Source: Pseudonocardia alni (GTDB lineage Bacteria > Actinomycetota > Actinomycetes > Mycobacteriales > Pseudonocardiaceae). From it: a DNA stretch of 64,000 nt. Numbering within the stretch: position 1 is the stretch's first letter; the number at the start of each line of letters is the position of its first letter. Shown piece after piece: positions 8,501-21,530 of this stretch. A program made the position numbers and the translations under genes. The stretch covers positions 1,674,001-1,738,000 of the forward strand of contig NZ_PHUJ01000003.1 of NCBI RefSeq assembly GCF_002813375.1. Direction: 5' to 3'. A model generated the notes under the pieces. That model saw only the letters and a program-made list of their open reading frames with translations, was not told the DNA's origin and made no database searches.

Positions 8501-9814
8501 ATGACCGACCGCCCCGCCACGCCCACCGTGACCGACGCGGACGCCCGCCGGGTCGCCTTCGGTGCGTTCGTCGGCACCGCGCTCGAGTGGTACGACTTCT
8601 TCCTCTACGGCACCGCGGCGTCGCTGGTGTTCAACCGGCTCTTCTTCGCCACCGGCGACCCGGTCGTCGCGACGCTGGCCGCGTTCGCGTCGTTCGCGGT
8701 CGGGTTCGCCGCGCGCCCGGTCGGGGCGGTGATCTTCGGCCACCTCGGCGACCGGATCGGCCGGCGCCGCTGCCTGATCGTCACGGTGACGATGATCGGG
8801 ATCGTCACCGGGCTGATCGGCCTGCTGCCCACCTACCTGTCGATCGGGCTGGCGGCCCCGCTGCTGCTGACCCTGTTCCGGCTGCTGCAGGGCGTCGCGG
8901 TCGGCGGCGAGTGGGGCGGCGCGGTCACCCTCGCCGTCGAGCACGCGCCGCCGGAGCGCCGCGGCCGCTACGCGGCGATGCCGCAGGTCGGCGCCCCCGT
9001 CGGCACCCTGCTGTCCTCCGGCGCGTTCCTCGCGGTGGCGACGCTCCCCCCGGAGAGCTTCGACTCCTGGGGCTGGCGGCTGCCGTTCCTCGCGGCGTTC
9101 CCGCTGCTGGGGATCGCGCTGTGGCTGCGACGCCGGGTCGAGGAGTCGCCGCTGTTCGCGACGATGCTCGAGACCGACGAGCGCGCGTCGTCGCCGGTGC
9201 GCGAGGTCGTGACGCGGGCATCGCCGCAGCTGGCGGTCGGCGCCGGGTCGGCGTTCCTGGGGGTCGGCGGCTTCTACCTGATCACCACGTTCGCGATCAG
9301 CTACGGCACCGCGACACTCGGCCTGCCACGCTCGCTGATGCTGGGCGCGACGCTGGTCGCCGCGGTCGTCGAGATCGGGGTCGTCGTGCTCGGCGGCCGT
9401 CTCGCGGAGCGCCACGGCGCGTGGCGGGTCACCGTCGCCGGCGGCATCGCGTCCGCGGTCGCGGCGTTCCCGGCGTTCTGGCTGCTGGACTCGCGCTCGC
9501 CGGTCCTGGTCGTCCTCGGCGTCACGGTGGCCACCGCGCTGCTGTCGGTGCCCTACGCCGTCTCGGGGGCGTTGCTCACCGAGCTGTTCCCGGCGCACCT
9601 GCGCTACTCGGGGGTCGCGCTGTCGTCGAACCTGGCCGGTGTGGTGTCCGGGTTCGTGCCCCTGGCCGCGACGGCGCTGCTGGCCGCGGGCGGGGGCTCC
9701 TCGGCCATGCCCGCCCTGCTGCTCGTCGGGATCTCGCTCGTCACCGCCGGTTCCGGGGCGCTCGCGCCGCGCCTGTTCGCCGAGCGGGACCGGGTGGTCG
9801 CCGCGGACCGCTGA
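8501..9814 (+). CDS. MHS family MFS metabolite:H+ symporter
   Basis: A 437-residue, 12-segment transporter of the metabolite:H+ symporter branch. Signatures: FGAFVGTALEWYDFFLYGTAA in TM1, GHLGDRIGRRRCLI between TM2 and TM3, RLLQGVAVGGEWGGA, and RRRVEESPLF after TM6. I chose the ATG at 8501 with GAGAGG upstream; the in-frame sequence before it is Arg-rich and unlike the family. It is divergent from the M20/PucR/dgdA operon and likely imports the substrate of that pathway (an organic acid, amino acid or ureide). Confidence 0.88.
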   Translation: MTDRPATPTVTDADARRVAFGAFVGTALEWYDFFLYGTAASLVFNRLFFATGDPVVATLAAFASFAVGFAARPVGAVIFGHLGDRIGRRRCLIVTVTMIGIVTGLIGLLPTYLSIGLAAPLLLTLFRLLQGVAVGGEWGGAVTLAVEHAPPERRGRYAAMPQVGAPVGTLLSSGAFLAVATLPPESFDSWGWRLPFLAAFPLLGIALWLRRRVEESPLFATMLETDERASSPVREVVTRASPQLAVGAGSAFLGVGGFYLITTFAISYGTATLGLPRSLMLGATLVAAVVEIGVVVLGGRLAERHGAWRVTVAGGIASAVAAFPAFWLLDSRSPVLVVLGVTVATALLSVPYAVSGALLTELFPAHLRYSGVALSSNLAGVVSGFVPLAATALLAAGGGSSAMPALLLVGISLVTAGSGALAPRLFAERDRVVAADR

Positions 9815-16821: not shown

Positions 16822-17721
16822 ATGCGCGGGTACGGGTTCGTGCGGGCGGGTGGCCCGGAACAGCAGACGTTCGTCGAGGTCCCCGAACCGCGGCCGGGGC
16901 CGGGTGAGCTGCTGGTGGCCGTCCGCGCGGCCGGGGTCAACCCGGGCGACCGGCGGATGCGCGACGGCGACTACGGCGTCACCGGTCCCGCGGTGCTCGG
17001 CCGCGAGGTCGCCGGGACCGTGCTGGAGGTCGGCGACGGCGTCACCGGGTTCGCCCCCGGCGACGAGGTGTTCGGCGGCTGCCCGGACATGCAGGGCGGC
17101 TGGGCGCCGCGGGCGCGCGTCACCGCCGGGTTCGCCGCGCACCGCCCGCCGGAGGTCTCGCCCGAGCAGGCGGCGGCGCTGCCGGTCGCCGCGGGCACCG
17201 CCTGGGACACCCTCACGAACCTCGACCTGCCCGCCGGGGCGACGCTGCTGGTCAACGGGGCGGGCGGCGGGGTCGGCCTGCCTCTGGTGCAGCTGGCCCG
17301 CCGCCGCGGGCTGACGGTCGTCGGCACGGCGAGCCCCGGCAAACACTCCCTGCTCGCCGGGTTCGGCGCCGTCCCGGTGGCCTACGGCGACGGCGTCGCC
17401 GACCGGATCCGCGCGGCCGCGCCCGGCGGTGTCGACGGCGCCCTGGACCTGGTCGGCGGCGACGCGCTGCGCGCGGTGGCCGGGCTCGTCCCGCCCGCGG
17501 CGCTGTACTCGATCGCGGACAAGCCGCTGGTCGCGCAGCTGGGCGGCCGCGACGTCACCCGCGACCGCAGCACCGCGGTGCTCGACGCGCTCGCCGCACT
17601 CGTCGCGGCCGGGGAGCTCGACCCGCTGGTGCGCGAGGTCCGGCCGCTGGCCGAGGCCGGGGCGGCGCTCGCCCTGGTCGAACAGGGTCACGTGACCGGC
17701 AAGGTCGTCCTGGTGCTCTAG
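16822..17721 (+). CDS. Zinc-independent quinone oxidoreductase-like MDR dehydrogenase
   Basis: A 299-residue NADP-dependent medium-chain dehydrogenase without zinc-ligand cysteines. The N-terminal GroES-like fold includes PGPGELLVAVRAAGVNPGDRR and VLGREVAGTVLEVGDGV. The Rossmann half has LVNGAGGGVGLPLVQLARRRG and VVGTASPGKH. The C-terminal VEQGHVTGKVVL is typical of this family. GGGAGG precedes the ATG. It probably reduces quinones or alpha,beta-unsaturated carbonyls. It is divergent from the FUSC exporter and its stop overlaps the convergent EgtD-like gene by 4 nt. Confidence 0.85.
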   Translation: MRGYGFVRAGGPEQQTFVEVPEPRPGPGELLVAVRAAGVNPGDRRMRDGDYGVTGPAVLGREVAGTVLEVGDGVTGFAPGDEVFGGCPDMQGGWAPRARVTAGFAAHRPPEVSPEQAAALPVAAGTAWDTLTNLDLPAGATLLVNGAGGGVGLPLVQLARRRGLTVVGTASPGKHSLLAGFGAVPVAYGDGVADRIRAAAPGGVDGALDLVGGDALRAVAGLVPPAALYSIADKPLVAQLGGRDVTRDRSTAVLDALAALVAAGELDPLVREVRPLAEAGAALALVEQGHVTGKVVLVL

Positions 17722-18686
17722 TCCCGACGGAACAGGAACAGCCCGTAGCGGTGCTCGTCGTCGACCCACTCGGCCTCGGCCCGCAACCCGTGCCGAGCCA
17801 CGTCGGTGCGCAGCCGGTCGGGCTCGAACTTCGCCGAGAACCCGACGTTGACGCTGTCGCCGCGACGCAGCTCCAGCGTCCGGTCCAGGCCGGGCAGCAC
17901 CACGGTCTGGTCCCGGCGCGCCCACAGCCGCCCGTCGACGACGTCGGCGGCGGCGTCGTAGTGCGCCGCCGGGTGCACCGCGTCGAGGGCGACGCTCCCG
18001 CCGAACCGGCGTGCCAGGTGGTCGAGGTGGTTGAGCCGGAACCGGGCGAAGGCGTCGTACCCGGGCGGGTCGTTGTAGCAGGTCTCGAACACCTCCGGCG
18101 GCTTGACCAGGTCCGCCGAGAGCAGCAGCGCGTCACCGGGGCGCAGGGTGGCACCGATCCGGGCCAGCAGGGCGGCGCGCTCGTCGACGGTGGTGTTGCC
18201 GATGTTCGCACCGAGGAACAGCACGGCCACCGGGGCGCCGCCGTCGTCGCGCAGCCGGTCGAGACCGGCCTCGTACCGCCCCCACAGCCCGGTCACGCTC
18301 AGCCCGGGCAGGTCCGCCATGCGTTCGGCGCTGAGCACGAGCATCTCGCGGCTCACGTCGATCGGCAGGTAGGTCGTCGGCCGGGCCGCCGAGCAGTGTT
18401 CGAGCAGCAGCCGCGTCTTCTTCGCGCTCCCGGACCCGAGCTCGGCGACGCGTGGGCAGCCCAACCGGGCCGCGATGTCGGTGCCGTACCGCTCCAGGAG
18501 CGCCCGCTCGCACCGGGTCAGGTAGTAGGTCGGCAGCTCGGTGATCTGTTCGAACAGCTCCGAGCCGAGCGCGTCGTAGCCGAACCAGGGCGGGATCCGC
18601 GGCAGCGGCTCGGCGAGGCGGGCGCGCAGCTCGTCGGTGTCGTCCCAGAAGGAGCCCTGTTCCAGCTCGACCGGGGCGGCGGTCAC
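17718..18686 (-). CDS. EgtD-like SAM-dependent amino acid N-methyltransferase
   Basis: A 322-residue protein of the EgtD/DUF2260 family, the same size as mycobacterial EgtD (about 321), which trimethylates histidine in ergothioneine synthesis. Visible elements: LPTYYLTRCERALLERYG at 51-68, the SAM loop AELGSGSAKKTR at 81-92, GANIGN at 159-164 and VGFSAKFEPDRLR at 281-293. The position expected to hold the imidazole-binding glutamate (E282 in M. smegmatis EgtD) is Gly in VNVGFSAKF, while the nearby Ser is kept. The substrate may therefore not be histidine. It is the last gene of a tightly overlapping block with a heme-oxygenase-like diiron protein, a CDGSH protein and an MTQ2-like methyltransferase; no egtA, egtB or egtC is nearby. 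Confidence 0.82.
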   Translation of the reverse strand: MTAAPVELEQGSFWDDTDELRARLAEPLPRIPPWFGYDALGSELFEQITELPTYYLTRCERALLERYGTDIAARLGCPRVAELGSGSAKKTRLLLEHCSAARPTTYLPIDVSREMLVLSAERMADLPGLSVTGLWGRYEAGLDRLRDDGGAPVAVLFLGANIGNTTVDERAALLARIGATLRPGDALLLSADLVKPPEVFETCYNDPPGYDAFARFRLNHLDHLARRFGGSVALDAVHPAAHYDAAADVVDGRLWARRDQTVVLPGLDRTLELRRGDSVNVGFSAKFEPDRLRTDVARHGLRAEAEWVDDEHRYGLFLFRRD

Positions 18687-19705
18687 CGGCCCGGCCCGTC
18701 GTCGAGCGGGCGGCGCAGGCTCGACTCCCCCGCCGCCCAGCGGGCCAGCACGTGCCCGCCGAGCCGGTCGCCGAGCAGCCCGGCGGCCCGGATGCCGAAC
18801 ACGACGTCGGCGGCCAGGCCGGGCTCGGTACGCAGCAGCGGGGCGAGGACGTCGCGACGCACGACCTGCTCGTGCACGGCGTCGGCCTCCACGTGCTCGT
18901 CGTAGAAGCGGATCGCGGCGGGGCCGCAGCCGAGCCGGCGCATCGCGCGGACCAGGCGCTCCGATCCGGGCGAGGAGGTCAGCTCGACCAGCGCGAACTG
19001 CCCGACCAGCGCGCCGCGCAGGCTGCGCCGCAGCCCGCACAGCGACATGAAGTTGACCTCGGCGAGGGTCTCGGCGCCGACGGTGTCGACGTGCGCGCCG
19101 TAGGCCTCGGACAGTCCGAGGTCGCGCATCATGTCGGCGAACAGCACGGCGTGCATGCCCGCGGCGTCGCCCGCGCCGTACTCGTCGTGCTCGACGGTGA
19201 CCAGGCCCGCCTTGGCGGCCGGGGGCAGCCGCGGGATCACCCAGGCCTGCGGGTCGGCCTCCTTCAGGTGGTAGATCGAGCGGTGCACGACGTACTCGCG
19301 CAGCTGCCACAGCTCGCCGCGGCGCAGCAGGTGGTGGGTCACGCCGGTCTCCGCGCCCGGCCCGACCGGCTCGACGAGCAGCTCGGCGACGGTCGCGTCG
19401 ACGTCGTCGCCGGGCGGGACCGCACCACGGAGGGCGGCCAGGAACCGCTCCTCCAGCGCCACGCGCAACCCGAGCAGGGCCACCTCCCACTCGTGCTCGT
19501 CGCCGACCCCGGCGAAGCCGCGGTAGTGCAGCTCGTAGCAGCAGTGCAGGGCCAGGTGCAGGTCCTCGCCCCACGGGTCGGCGTCGCCCGCGGCGGGCAG
19601 CGCGGCGGGATCGCCGCCCAGCCGGGCCAGGACGGCGCCGGACAGCGGGCCGCGCGCCGCCGGCAGCGGCGCGGTCCCGGTGCCCGGGTGCGGGGGTGCG
19701 GTCAC
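18683..19705 (-). CDS. Iron-containing redox enzyme family protein (heme-oxygenase-like diiron fold)
   Basis: A 340-residue helical protein of the iron-containing redox enzyme/HDO type. Candidate iron ligands are in the CYELHYRGF helix, VEHDEYGAGDAAGMHAVLFAD, and the C-terminal FYDEHVEADAVHEQV, which has the family spacing of E/H/D/H residues. Relatives include oxidative decarboxylases, N-oxygenases and C-C lyases acting on amino acids or fatty acids. I chose the GTG at 19705, preceded by AGGAGG at a good spacing. Its stop overlaps the EgtD-like start and its start overlaps the CDGSH stop, so the three are coupled. The reaction is unknown. Confidence 0.78.
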   Translation of the reverse strand: MTAPPHPGTGTAPLPAARGPLSGAVLARLGGDPAALPAAGDADPWGEDLHLALHCCYELHYRGFAGVGDEHEWEVALLGLRVALEERFLAALRGAVPPGDDVDATVAELLVEPVGPGAETGVTHHLLRRGELWQLREYVVHRSIYHLKEADPQAWVIPRLPPAAKAGLVTVEHDEYGAGDAAGMHAVLFADMMRDLGLSEAYGAHVDTVGAETLAEVNFMSLCGLRRSLRGALVGQFALVELTSSPGSERLVRAMRRLGCGPAAIRFYDEHVEADAVHEQVVRRDVLAPLLRTEPGLAADVVFGIRAAGLLGDRLGGHVLARWAAGESSLRRPLDDGPGR

Positions 19706-19917
19706 GTCGGGTCCTCCTGTCGCACGCGGGTGCGGTGGCTGGTGTCGCAGAACGGCGGGCGGCGGGTGCGCCGGCAGGTGCACAGCGCGGTGACCGGGCG
19801 CCGCGAGGTCACCCGGGTGCCGTCGGGCAGCTCGACCTCCACCGGGCCGGTCACCAGGACCGGGCCGTCGTCGGTGAGCCGCACCCGCGTGGGCCCGGCG
19901 CCGGTCTCACGACCCAC
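19702..19917 (-). CDS. CDGSH-type iron-sulfur protein
   Basis: A 71-residue protein with a CDGSH-type cluster motif: ALCTCRRTRRPPFCDTSHRTR, giving ligands C46, C48, C57 and H61. These proteins carry a redox-active, labile 2Fe-2S cluster. It sits between the methyltransferase (11-nt overlap) and the diiron protein (4-nt overlap), and may supply electrons or iron-sulfur chemistry to that enzyme. The usual glycine of CDGSH is Thr here, seen in other small actinobacterial members. Confidence 0.85.
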   Translation of the reverse strand: MGRETGAGPTRVRLTDDGPVLVTGPVEVELPDGTRVTSRRPVTALCTCRRTRRPPFCDTSHRTRVRQEDPT

Positions 19918-20557
19918 GGACGGCCTCGATCACCACGAGCTCCTCGTCGGCGGCGCCGGGTTCGACCAGGCCGCGGGCCTCGTGCAGCGCGGTGCGGGCC
20001 CGCATCACCGGGCCGAGCGGGATCCGGGACCGGTCGGCGACCCGCACGGTGAGCCCGGCCGCGGCGAGCCGGTCCAGCGAGGCCTGCACCCCGGAGACGG
20101 CGCTGTGCACCATGAGCAGCGCGCCGCCCGGTCCGAGATGGGCGGCGACGCCGTCGCAGATGCGGTCGATCACGGCGCGGCCGTCGCGGCCGCCGTCCCA
20201 GCTGCGGGCCCGGCGGTGGCGGACGAGCCGGTCGGTGTGCGACGGCACGTACGGCGGGTTGGCGGTGACGAGGTCGAACCGCCGGCCGTCGACGGGGCCG
20301 AACAGGTCACCGCGGTGCACGGTCAGCGCGGTGCGGTGCAGCCGGGCGTTGACCCGTGCCGCGAGCACGGCGCGCCGTGACAGGTCGACCGCCGTGACCG
20401 CGCCGGCACCGCAGCGGGCCGCGGCGAGCGCCACGGTCCCGGTGCCGGTGCCCAGGTCGAGCACGGCCCCGCGGGCCCGCCCGGAGACGGCGACGGCGCG
20501 GGCCAGCATCTGCGAGTCCGACTGCGGCCGGTAGACCCCGGGCGGGGTCAGGAGCAT
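19907..20557 (-). CDS. HemK2/MTQ2-like class I SAM methyltransferase
   Basis: A 216-residue methyltransferase with the SAM loop VLDLGTGTGTVALAAARCG and the NPPY catalytic motif in DLVTANPPYVPSHTD, which marks N-methylation of glutamine, adenine or another planar amide. The family methylates release factor glutamine or tRNA adenine. The start at ATG 20557 gives MLLTPPGVYRPQSDSQML, the usual beginning; a GTG three codons earlier is possible. It is packed between the DUF8129-like gene and the CDGSH gene, and may act on a small molecule or protein linked to that operon. Confidence 0.82.
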   Translation of the reverse strand: MLLTPPGVYRPQSDSQMLARAVAVSGRARGAVLDLGTGTGTVALAAARCGAGAVTAVDLSRRAVLAARVNARLHRTALTVHRGDLFGPVDGRRFDLVTANPPYVPSHTDRLVRHRRARSWDGGRDGRAVIDRICDGVAAHLGPGGALLMVHSAVSGVQASLDRLAAAGLTVRVADRSRIPLGPVMRARTALHEARGLVEPGAADEELVVIEAVRGS

Positions 20558-20567
20558 GGGCGCCACG

Positions 20568-21530
20568 TCAGTGCGCGACCGTCTCGCGGGCCACCTCGGC
20601 GTGCCGGGTGCGGGCCGCGGTGAGCACGCCCGCCCGGTTCTTGTGCTGCTCCTCGTAGCGCAGCACGGCCTGCACGTCCTCGGGCGCGTCGAGCTCGCGG
20701 ACAGCGCGAACCGCGTCGGGGACGGACAGATCGTCGTAGCCGTCGACCGGGAGTTCGCCGGCGCCGAGCGCGCCGCGGGACCGGCGGGTGTCGTGCAGGG
20801 CCCGGGCGGCGTCGCCGGCCCGCTCGCGGCGGGCGATGTCCTCGGCACGCTCCAGGGCGGCGTCCAGCCCGGAGCCGAGGACGTCGGCGGCGTCGCGCCC
20901 GGCGCGGTCGGCGCCGTCGCCGAGTGCCGACGCGGTGCGCCGCACCCGTTCCCCGGCCCGGGTCAGCTCGTGCCCGGCCCGGTTCAGGCCGACGGCGCCG
21001 AGGCGGGCCGGGAGCCGGACGGCGTCGGTGACGGCGCCGCGCGCGATCTGCAGCGGGGTGGCCCGCAGCGGCGCGGGACCGCCGACGGCCTCCTCGGCGA
21101 GCACCGTGGTCAGCCACTCGACGGTCTCGCTGTGGGCCTCGACGAGCTCACCGGCGAGGCGGTGCACCCGTTCCGGCCCGGACGCGGTCAGCGCCTGCAG
21201 GTAGCGGGCGCGGTCCTGCAGCTGCCGCTCCAGCGCGAGGTCCCCGAGCAGCGCCTCGTCGAAGCGCTGGGCCTGCTCGACCTGGCTCTTCACGAACGCG
21301 AGGATCCGGCCGCCGACGGCGCCGACCAGGTCGGGTACGGCGTCGAGCTCACGCAGGGCGTCCTGGATGCGGCCGAGCCGGTCCTCGGCGCGGCGGGCGT
21401 TGTCGGTGAGCTCGCGGCGGGTCTCGTCGGTGCGGGCCTGCACGGTGCGCAGGCGCGCGATCCGGTTCTCGGTGCGGGTCAGCTGCTCCAGCACACGGAG
21501 CTGGGCGACCACGGCGGCGGTATCGGTCAC
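20568..21530 (-). CDS. Uncharacterised helical protein with C-terminal DUF8129-like motif
   Basis: A 320-residue, almost entirely helical protein. Residues 1-150 form charged helices (TRTENRIARLRTVQARTDETR and following) with a ferritin-like look. The last ~50 residues read DDLSVPDAVRAVRELDAPED then VLRYEEQHKNRAGVLTAAR, the YE-xx-HKxR signature of the DUF8129 C-terminal motif found in actinobacterial lipid-droplet or membrane-linked proteins. The GTG at 21530 follows an AGAGGA box. It begins the tight minus-strand block ending with the EgtD-like gene. Function unknown. Confidence 0.65.
   Translation of the reverse strand: MTDTAAVVAQLRVLEQLTRTENRIARLRTVQARTDETRRELTDNARRAEDRLGRIQDALRELDAVPDLVGAVGGRILAFVKSQVEQAQRFDEALLGDLALERQLQDRARYLQALTASGPERVHRLAGELVEAHSETVEWLTTVLAEEAVGGPAPLRATPLQIARGAVTDAVRLPARLGAVGLNRAGHELTRAGERVRRTASALGDGADRAGRDAADVLGSGLDAALERAEDIARRERAGDAARALHDTRRSRGALGAGELPVDGYDDLSVPDAVRAVRELDAPEDVQAVLRYEEQHKNRAGVLTAARTRHAEVARETVAH

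Follow-up and report, generated by a model that had tools for sequence, protein, structure and literature searches.

Gene layout of the locus

The window analyzed here is a stretch of 64,000 nucleotides of Pseudonocardia DNA, in which five packed genes occupy positions 17718-21530 of the minus strand. In the order of transcription, these genes encode a helical protein, a HemK2/MTQ2-like class I methyltransferase, a CDGSH-type [2Fe-2S] protein, a heme-oxygenase-like diiron oxygenase (HDO), and an EgtD-like methyltransferase, denoted here as EgtD2. The last four of these genes form a real cassette, and the combination of an altered EgtD with recurring partners points to an undescribed pathway for a modified amino acid.

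All five reading frames are present. The frames of the MTQ2-like and CDGSH genes overlap by 11 bases, and the CDGSH/HDO and HDO/EgtD2 junctions overlap by 4 bases each. The gap between the helical gene and the MTQ2-like gene is a single base, or 10 bases if the latter begins at its alternative ATG, at 20557. The tight packing of five genes described in the first-pass annotation is thus borne out, and the overlaps at the last three junctions suggest translational coupling. The pairwise ratios of nonsynonymous to synonymous substitution rates (dN/dS) for the five genes against one near relative (L085) were 0.16-0.38, as expected for working genes. The nearest named relative, as judged by EgtD2, is Pseudonocardia sp. 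ICBG1293 (93%).

EgtD2 and the recurrence of its partners

EgtD2 (17718..18686, minus strand, GTG start at 18686) was assigned to the Methyltransf_33 family (PF10017) with 271.4 bits against a gathering score of 23. When aligned with EgtD from M. smegmatis, the protein has glycine at positions 252 (codon 17933-17931) and 282 (codon 17843-17841), which confirms the Gly at 282 and the Gly near 252 of the first-pass annotation, and both replacements are nearly fixed across the whole subfamily. Across 59 aligned EgtD2 rows, which include L090, L091, L140, L124, L125, and strains that are present twice, position 282 is Gly in 58 rows and Ser in one (L103); position 252 is Gly, Ala, and Val in 51, 7, and 1 rows, respectively. 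Canonical EgtD has E282 and M252 in 17/17 rows. The residues that hold the α-carboxylate and α-amine of the amino-acid head group in EgtD structures, according to PMC8593015, are Y56, N166, Y206, and S284. These residues were found in EgtD2 in 58/58 (one row gapped), 59/59, 59/59, and 57/59 rows, respectively. Four further changes (F38G, D141R, D207N, and N217R) are fixed in 43/43 rows of a reduced set, from which 13 rows, mostly repeat strains, were dropped and in which L124, L125, and L140 do not appear. A two-residue insertion is located near T213. By alignment and the published EgtD contacts, EgtD2 is predicted to have kept the head-group site and to have lost the imidazole site. Since the head-group residues are kept and the imidazole-site residues are changed, EgtD2 should still bind an α-amino acid, but one with a different side chain.

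The EgtD2 sequences make up a subfamily of their own. In a tree of 61 rows, 36 (34 EgtD2 sequences plus L124 and L125) group together with a support of 99 in the Shimodaira-Hasegawa-like approximate likelihood ratio test, apart from canonical EgtD (100). Within this clade, L124 and L125 have C-H-G-H-S at positions 280-284 instead of N-V-G-F-S, and the trio of HDO, CDGSH, and MTQ2 was not found in the flanks examined, that of L124 stopping at a contig end. A neighboring Methyltransf_33 lineage (L128, L129, L130, and L157) has Asp at position 282 and Ala or Ser at position 252; no HDO trio was found in the flanks examined for these four loci.

The score of EgtD2 against the EgtD family model TIGR03438 is 229.4 bits, below the cut-off of 290.9, and the other EgtD copy of the same genome scores 367. 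That copy is part of a full EgtABCD set at another place in the genome, and all four members score above their family cut-offs. Among the genus sample, 14/14 genomes with an intact EgtD2 carry a second, more distant EgtD match, for which residues and family score were examined in the copy from the window genome. A second EgtD above the family cut-off was found in 21/22 named EgtD2 genomes tested, the exception being a metagenome bin. No egt gene was found beside EgtD2, and no egt family was among the matches of the six neighboring proteins scanned. With this set present, it is probably not EgtD2 that methylates histidine in the cell. This role for EgtD2 was rejected on its sub-cut-off TIGR03438 score, the predicted loss of the imidazole site, and the separate, complete egt set.

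The first-pass annotation had called for a gene-neighborhood survey for co-occurrence of five families. Four of the families do recur together across three actinobacterial families; the helical gene was near EgtD2 in only 4/44 loci. The 44 loci come from a scan of named genomes, of which the best 80 of 497 matches were kept, and they repeat strains that occur elsewhere in the sample; 34 of the loci have at least 4 kb on each side. HDO, CDGSH, and MTQ2 all lie within 4 kb of EgtD2 in 31 of these 34. L090 and L091 have identical match coordinates, and are possibly one sequence, and L140 has a frameshifted EgtD2; all three are counted in both the 44 and the 34, and the distance test was run without L090 and L140. 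L124 and L125, which lack the NVG motif and for which no trio was found, are both in the 44, and L125 is in the 34. The three loci without the full trio nearby are L125, L094, and L095, and in the last two EgtD2 is located elsewhere in the genome than HDO. In both L094 and L095, immediately upstream of EgtD2 lies a gene that was named by eye as a LacI-type regulator, and an AMP-binding enzyme is nearby; in L094 an EgtC-like gene, below its family cut-off, is about 3 kb from EgtD2.

At least five arrangements of the cassette were observed: MTQ2-CDGSH-HDO-EgtD2, EgtD2-MTQ2-CDGSH-HDO, a divergent order (L109), a convergent order (L126), and EgtD2-MTQ2-CDGSH facing HDO, as found in Embleya hyalina and Streptomyces sp. 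NBC_01237. The EgtD2 from Embleya groups with the EgtD2s of Pseudonocardiales (99), and its HDO and MTQ2 fall outside the Pseudonocardiaceae/Nocardiopsidaceae group. This situation is best explained if EgtD2 joined a second trio, already resident and of another lineage, and no other single observation argues as strongly that EgtD2 and the trio are functionally linked. In a sample of 394 genomes of the class, EgtD2 was found in seven (E ≤ 1e-105), six of which are from one genus, and HDO adjoins in 7/7.

The HDO-CDGSH pair and the neighboring genes

HDO (18683..19705, minus strand) matches the Pfam family Haem_oxygenas_2 with 195 bits. Both the fold and the ligands used to recognize such enzymes, 3 His with 3-4 carboxylates, were found, and the predicted set is a complete 3H/4C set (E149, E175, H185, E241, H271, D275, and H278). 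These ligands are those of SznF, with identical spacing. The model of HDO is closest to the N-oxygenases HrmI, SznF, and RohS, and by predicted structure and ligands the protein would be of the N-oxygenase type, although the lists of similar structures leave room for other HDO chemistries. The CDGSH protein (19702..19917, minus strand; zf-CDGSH, 60 bits) has 71 residues and the motif CTCRRTRRPPFCDTSH, which carries 3 Cys and 1 His ligands. The [2Fe-2S] ligands C46, C48, C57, and H61 (PF09360) are invariant in 23/23 rows. A diiron enzyme with a CDGSH partner was a fair reading in the first-pass annotation. The protein in the window reads CDTSH in place of CDGSH. Among the HDO surroundings from 42 genomes of the class (see below), the same CDTSH is found in the CDGSH proteins of loci with MTQ2 (exception L198, CDGTH); where MTQ2 is absent and HDO is from another family, the usual reading is CDGSH or CDGTH. 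The MTQ2-like protein (19907..20566, minus strand) has the NPPY motif, as NPPYVP in 16/16 MTQ2-like rows, and scores 117.6 bits against TIGR00537 (HemK2/MTQ2; cut-off 87). Enzymes of the HemK2/MTQ2 family methylate a glutamine of a release factor, together with a Trm112 partner.

An HDO of matching profile was found in 198 of the 394 genomes of the class (E ≤ 1e-40). The surroundings of HDO were determined in 42 of these genomes, the best 30 of the 198 (own genome included; 1.5 kb flanks) and 12 spread over families (stretches of about 13 kb); CDGSH is present in 41/42 and MTQ2 in 28/42. Eight genomes from other genera of the same order have an HDO with 45% identity or more; CDGSH was found in 6/8 of these and MTQ2 in 2/8. 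Within the genus (36 genomes, own included), HDO was found in 34/36 and is split by frameshifts in G002 and G029. CDGSH adjoins HDO in 34/34 of the genomes that have it and MTQ2 in 31/34. EgtD2 is intact in 14/36, with remnant-like pieces in three more. Since HDO and CDGSH are nearly constant while MTQ2 and EgtD2 vary, the two form a widespread pair to which both methyltransferases look like add-ons. No description of such an HDO was found in the open-access literature searched.

In a tree of 50 HDOs, which left out L077, L078, and L084 and has no row for G001 or G002, the presence of EgtD2 changes nine times, at least five of which are forced by starred branches; this is fewer than in any of 500 shuffles. 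The EgtD2 remnants have large internal deletions and were found in L048 (G001), L047 (G002), and L049 (G032; a short, weak match). In L048 the matches to HDO, CDGSH, and MTQ2 are unbroken, and in L047 several cassette genes are frameshifted too, by decay or sequencing errors. An apparent separate loss of MTQ2 was observed in L034 (G014), where what appear to be the last ten MTQ2 residues are left at about 8700-8735, before CDGSH-HDO-EgtD2.

Genes for GCS2 (YbdK-type) carboxylate-amine ligases were found near HDO in Kitasatospora L216 (4770-7897) and in four other loci, L210 (7001-8323), L212 (582-1847), L202, and L203, two of which are from one genus; clustering of the flanking genes placed GCS2 ligases in 4 loci. 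In L216, the ligase and a dimethylargininase are located just upstream of HDO, the dimethylargininase being between the ligase and HDO. Of 100 loci searched for a dimethylargininase beside HDO, as a lead to arginine, this is the only one that has it. The L216 locus hints, weakly, at amino-acid ligation or arginine chemistry. A larger gene cluster was considered and rejected: the clustering of flanking genes beyond the cassette, which relied on a crude home-made gene caller, yielded no more than families of a generic kind that span several taxa; examples, named by eye, are an ABC-transporter ATPase (10 loci) and an alcohol dehydrogenase (7 loci). PADLOC gave no convincing defense match; a hit of the MTQ2-like protein to mad2 (69.5 bits) was read as a common methyltransferase domain.

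The helical protein (20568..21530, minus strand) is a genus-level neighbor, outside the conserved four-gene unit. Its gene is within 4 kb of EgtD2 in just the 4/44 named loci given above, which rules it out as a fifth member of the cassette, and near HDO in 16/34 loci of the genus. The label of a DUF8129-like protein was not confirmed, as no match to this Pfam family was obtained at E values up to 10; the only matches were DUF7491 and bHLH_STRA8, both below cut-off. Its relatives are weakly ferritin-like, with L058 matching DUF892 above cut-off and L052 matching Ferritin below cut-off.

Proposed pathway, alternatives, and known systems

Our preferred reading, which we put forward tentatively, is that HDO, the CDGSH protein, the MTQ2-like enzyme, and EgtD2 act together to make a modified, probably N-oxygenated, α-amino acid. 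All four would work on one molecule, with a side chain other than imidazole. HDO would oxidize a side-chain nitrogen of the amino acid, and the CDGSH protein would pass electrons to HDO and re-reduce its diiron center. To our knowledge, electron donation to an N-oxygenase HDO is not a known role for CDGSH proteins. The MTQ2-like enzyme may methylate a side-chain nitrogen or oxygen, in the manner of SznE before SznF in the streptozotocin pathway. In those lineages having it, EgtD2 would then, or in parallel, trimethylate the α-amine of this amino acid, yielding a betaine. Because the head-group site of EgtD2 appears to be kept, whatever compound the enzyme meets would still be an α-amino acid. 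The broader proposal, in which an N-oxygenase HDO with a dedicated CDGSH donor produces an N-oxygenated amino acid, to be capped by a repurposed EgtD as a trimethyl betaine, and in which HDO-CDGSH is an unrecognized near-core actinobacterial system, is more doubtful.

The chief alternative, which we consider rather unlikely, is that HDO and CDGSH, with or without MTQ2, make up a core actinobacterial stress or redox system for iron/oxygen handling or protein modification, that EgtD2 makes a separate betaine (e.g., an osmolyte or antioxidant) needed in the same circumstances, and that the shared locus reflects co-regulation. The occurrence of HDO in half of the class genomes and in 34/36 of the genus fits core physiology, not sporadic natural-product biosynthesis. 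The family of the MTQ2-like enzyme is named for protein methyltransferases, single loci are near SigB, STAS, CsbD, or gas-vesicle genes, and the neighbor in the genus is ferritin-like. However, EgtD2 accompanies trios from two or more lineages, the genes occur in at least five orders, and the resemblance of HDO is to small-molecule N-oxygenases.

It is improbable that EgtD2 acts first, converting a free, tryptophan-like amino acid of larger size than histidine to a betaine that is then oxidized by HDO with the CDGSH protein as donor. The losses of E282 and M252 do mirror an engineered tryptophan-binding EgtD (4pip), and the HDOs AetD and SktA act on bromotryptophans, as reported in PMC13108848. 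Most HDO genomes, however, lack EgtD2, and HDOs with and without it are intermingled on the tree (nine changes), so HDO probably does not, as a general rule, act on a product of EgtD2. For the same reason the order in the first-pass annotation, N-methylation followed by oxidation, is unlikely to be the rule: most genomes with the HDO-CDGSH(-MTQ2) core have no EgtD2 (EgtD2 in 7 and HDO in 198 of 394). A role for EgtD2 as a second, redundant methyltransferase for histidine in ergothioneine synthesis is highly improbable, since the shared Pfam family and fold (TM score of 0.92 to 4pio) are outweighed by the sub-cut-off score (229.4 vs 290.9 bits), the absence of the imidazole-site Glu in 59/59 rows, the complete canonical egt set elsewhere in the genome, and the lack of an egt family match among the six neighboring proteins scanned.

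These results define a natural EgtD subfamily in which evolution has replaced the same two residues that were mutated in an engineered EgtD whose ligand binding is changed (4pip). The question of the EgtD2 substrate becomes testable because the partner set points to a chemistry. They also expose an HDO in approximately half of the sampled actinomycete genomes, with a CDGSH gene nearly always near in the loci inspected, and make the CDGSH protein a candidate electron donor for HDOs.

EgtD, the L-histidine Nα-methyltransferase, catalyzes the first step of ergothioneine synthesis. EgtD2 shares the Methyltransf_33 fold with EgtD from M. smegmatis (4pio, TIGR03438), with 32% identity in the structural alignment and a TM score of 0.92, and it keeps the α-carboxylate and α-amine ligands Y56, N166, Y206, and S284. 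It differs from EgtD in E282 to Gly, M252 to Gly or Ala, F38 to Gly, D141 to Arg, the insertion near T213, and the sub-cut-off score. The structure 4pip is that of the engineered EgtD-M252V,E282A in complex with tryptophan. EgtD2 is reduced in size and charge at the same two positions, but it is natural, its residues are smaller still (Gly/Gly), and it has more clade-specific changes.

The cassette resembles SznE/SznF of streptozotocin biosynthesis in having a methyltransferase beside an HDO with the same diiron ligands at identical spacing (PMC11705231 for SznF). In the SznE/SznF-type pathway, a C-terminal cupin rearranges the hydroxylated product, whereas a Pfam scan found no cupin domain in any of the seven proteins scanned here. 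The cassette also differs in its CDGSH partner, in the extra EgtD2, and in having an MTQ2-like enzyme in place of an arginine-guanidino methyltransferase. The HDO from the window is 16-20% identical to the N-oxygenases HrmI and RohS and, unlike HrmI, which is described as 3H/3C in PMC13108848, it has the extra Glu241. A parallel for the redox pair is MboA/MboB of mangotoxin biosynthesis, where a [2Fe-2S] protein linked to the HDO is the candidate reductant; PMC13185094 calls MboAB possibly the first dedicated pair of an HDO and a redox partner. MboB is an NAD(P)H flavin-[2Fe-2S] reductase, whereas the corresponding partner in this locus is the 71-residue CDGSH protein.

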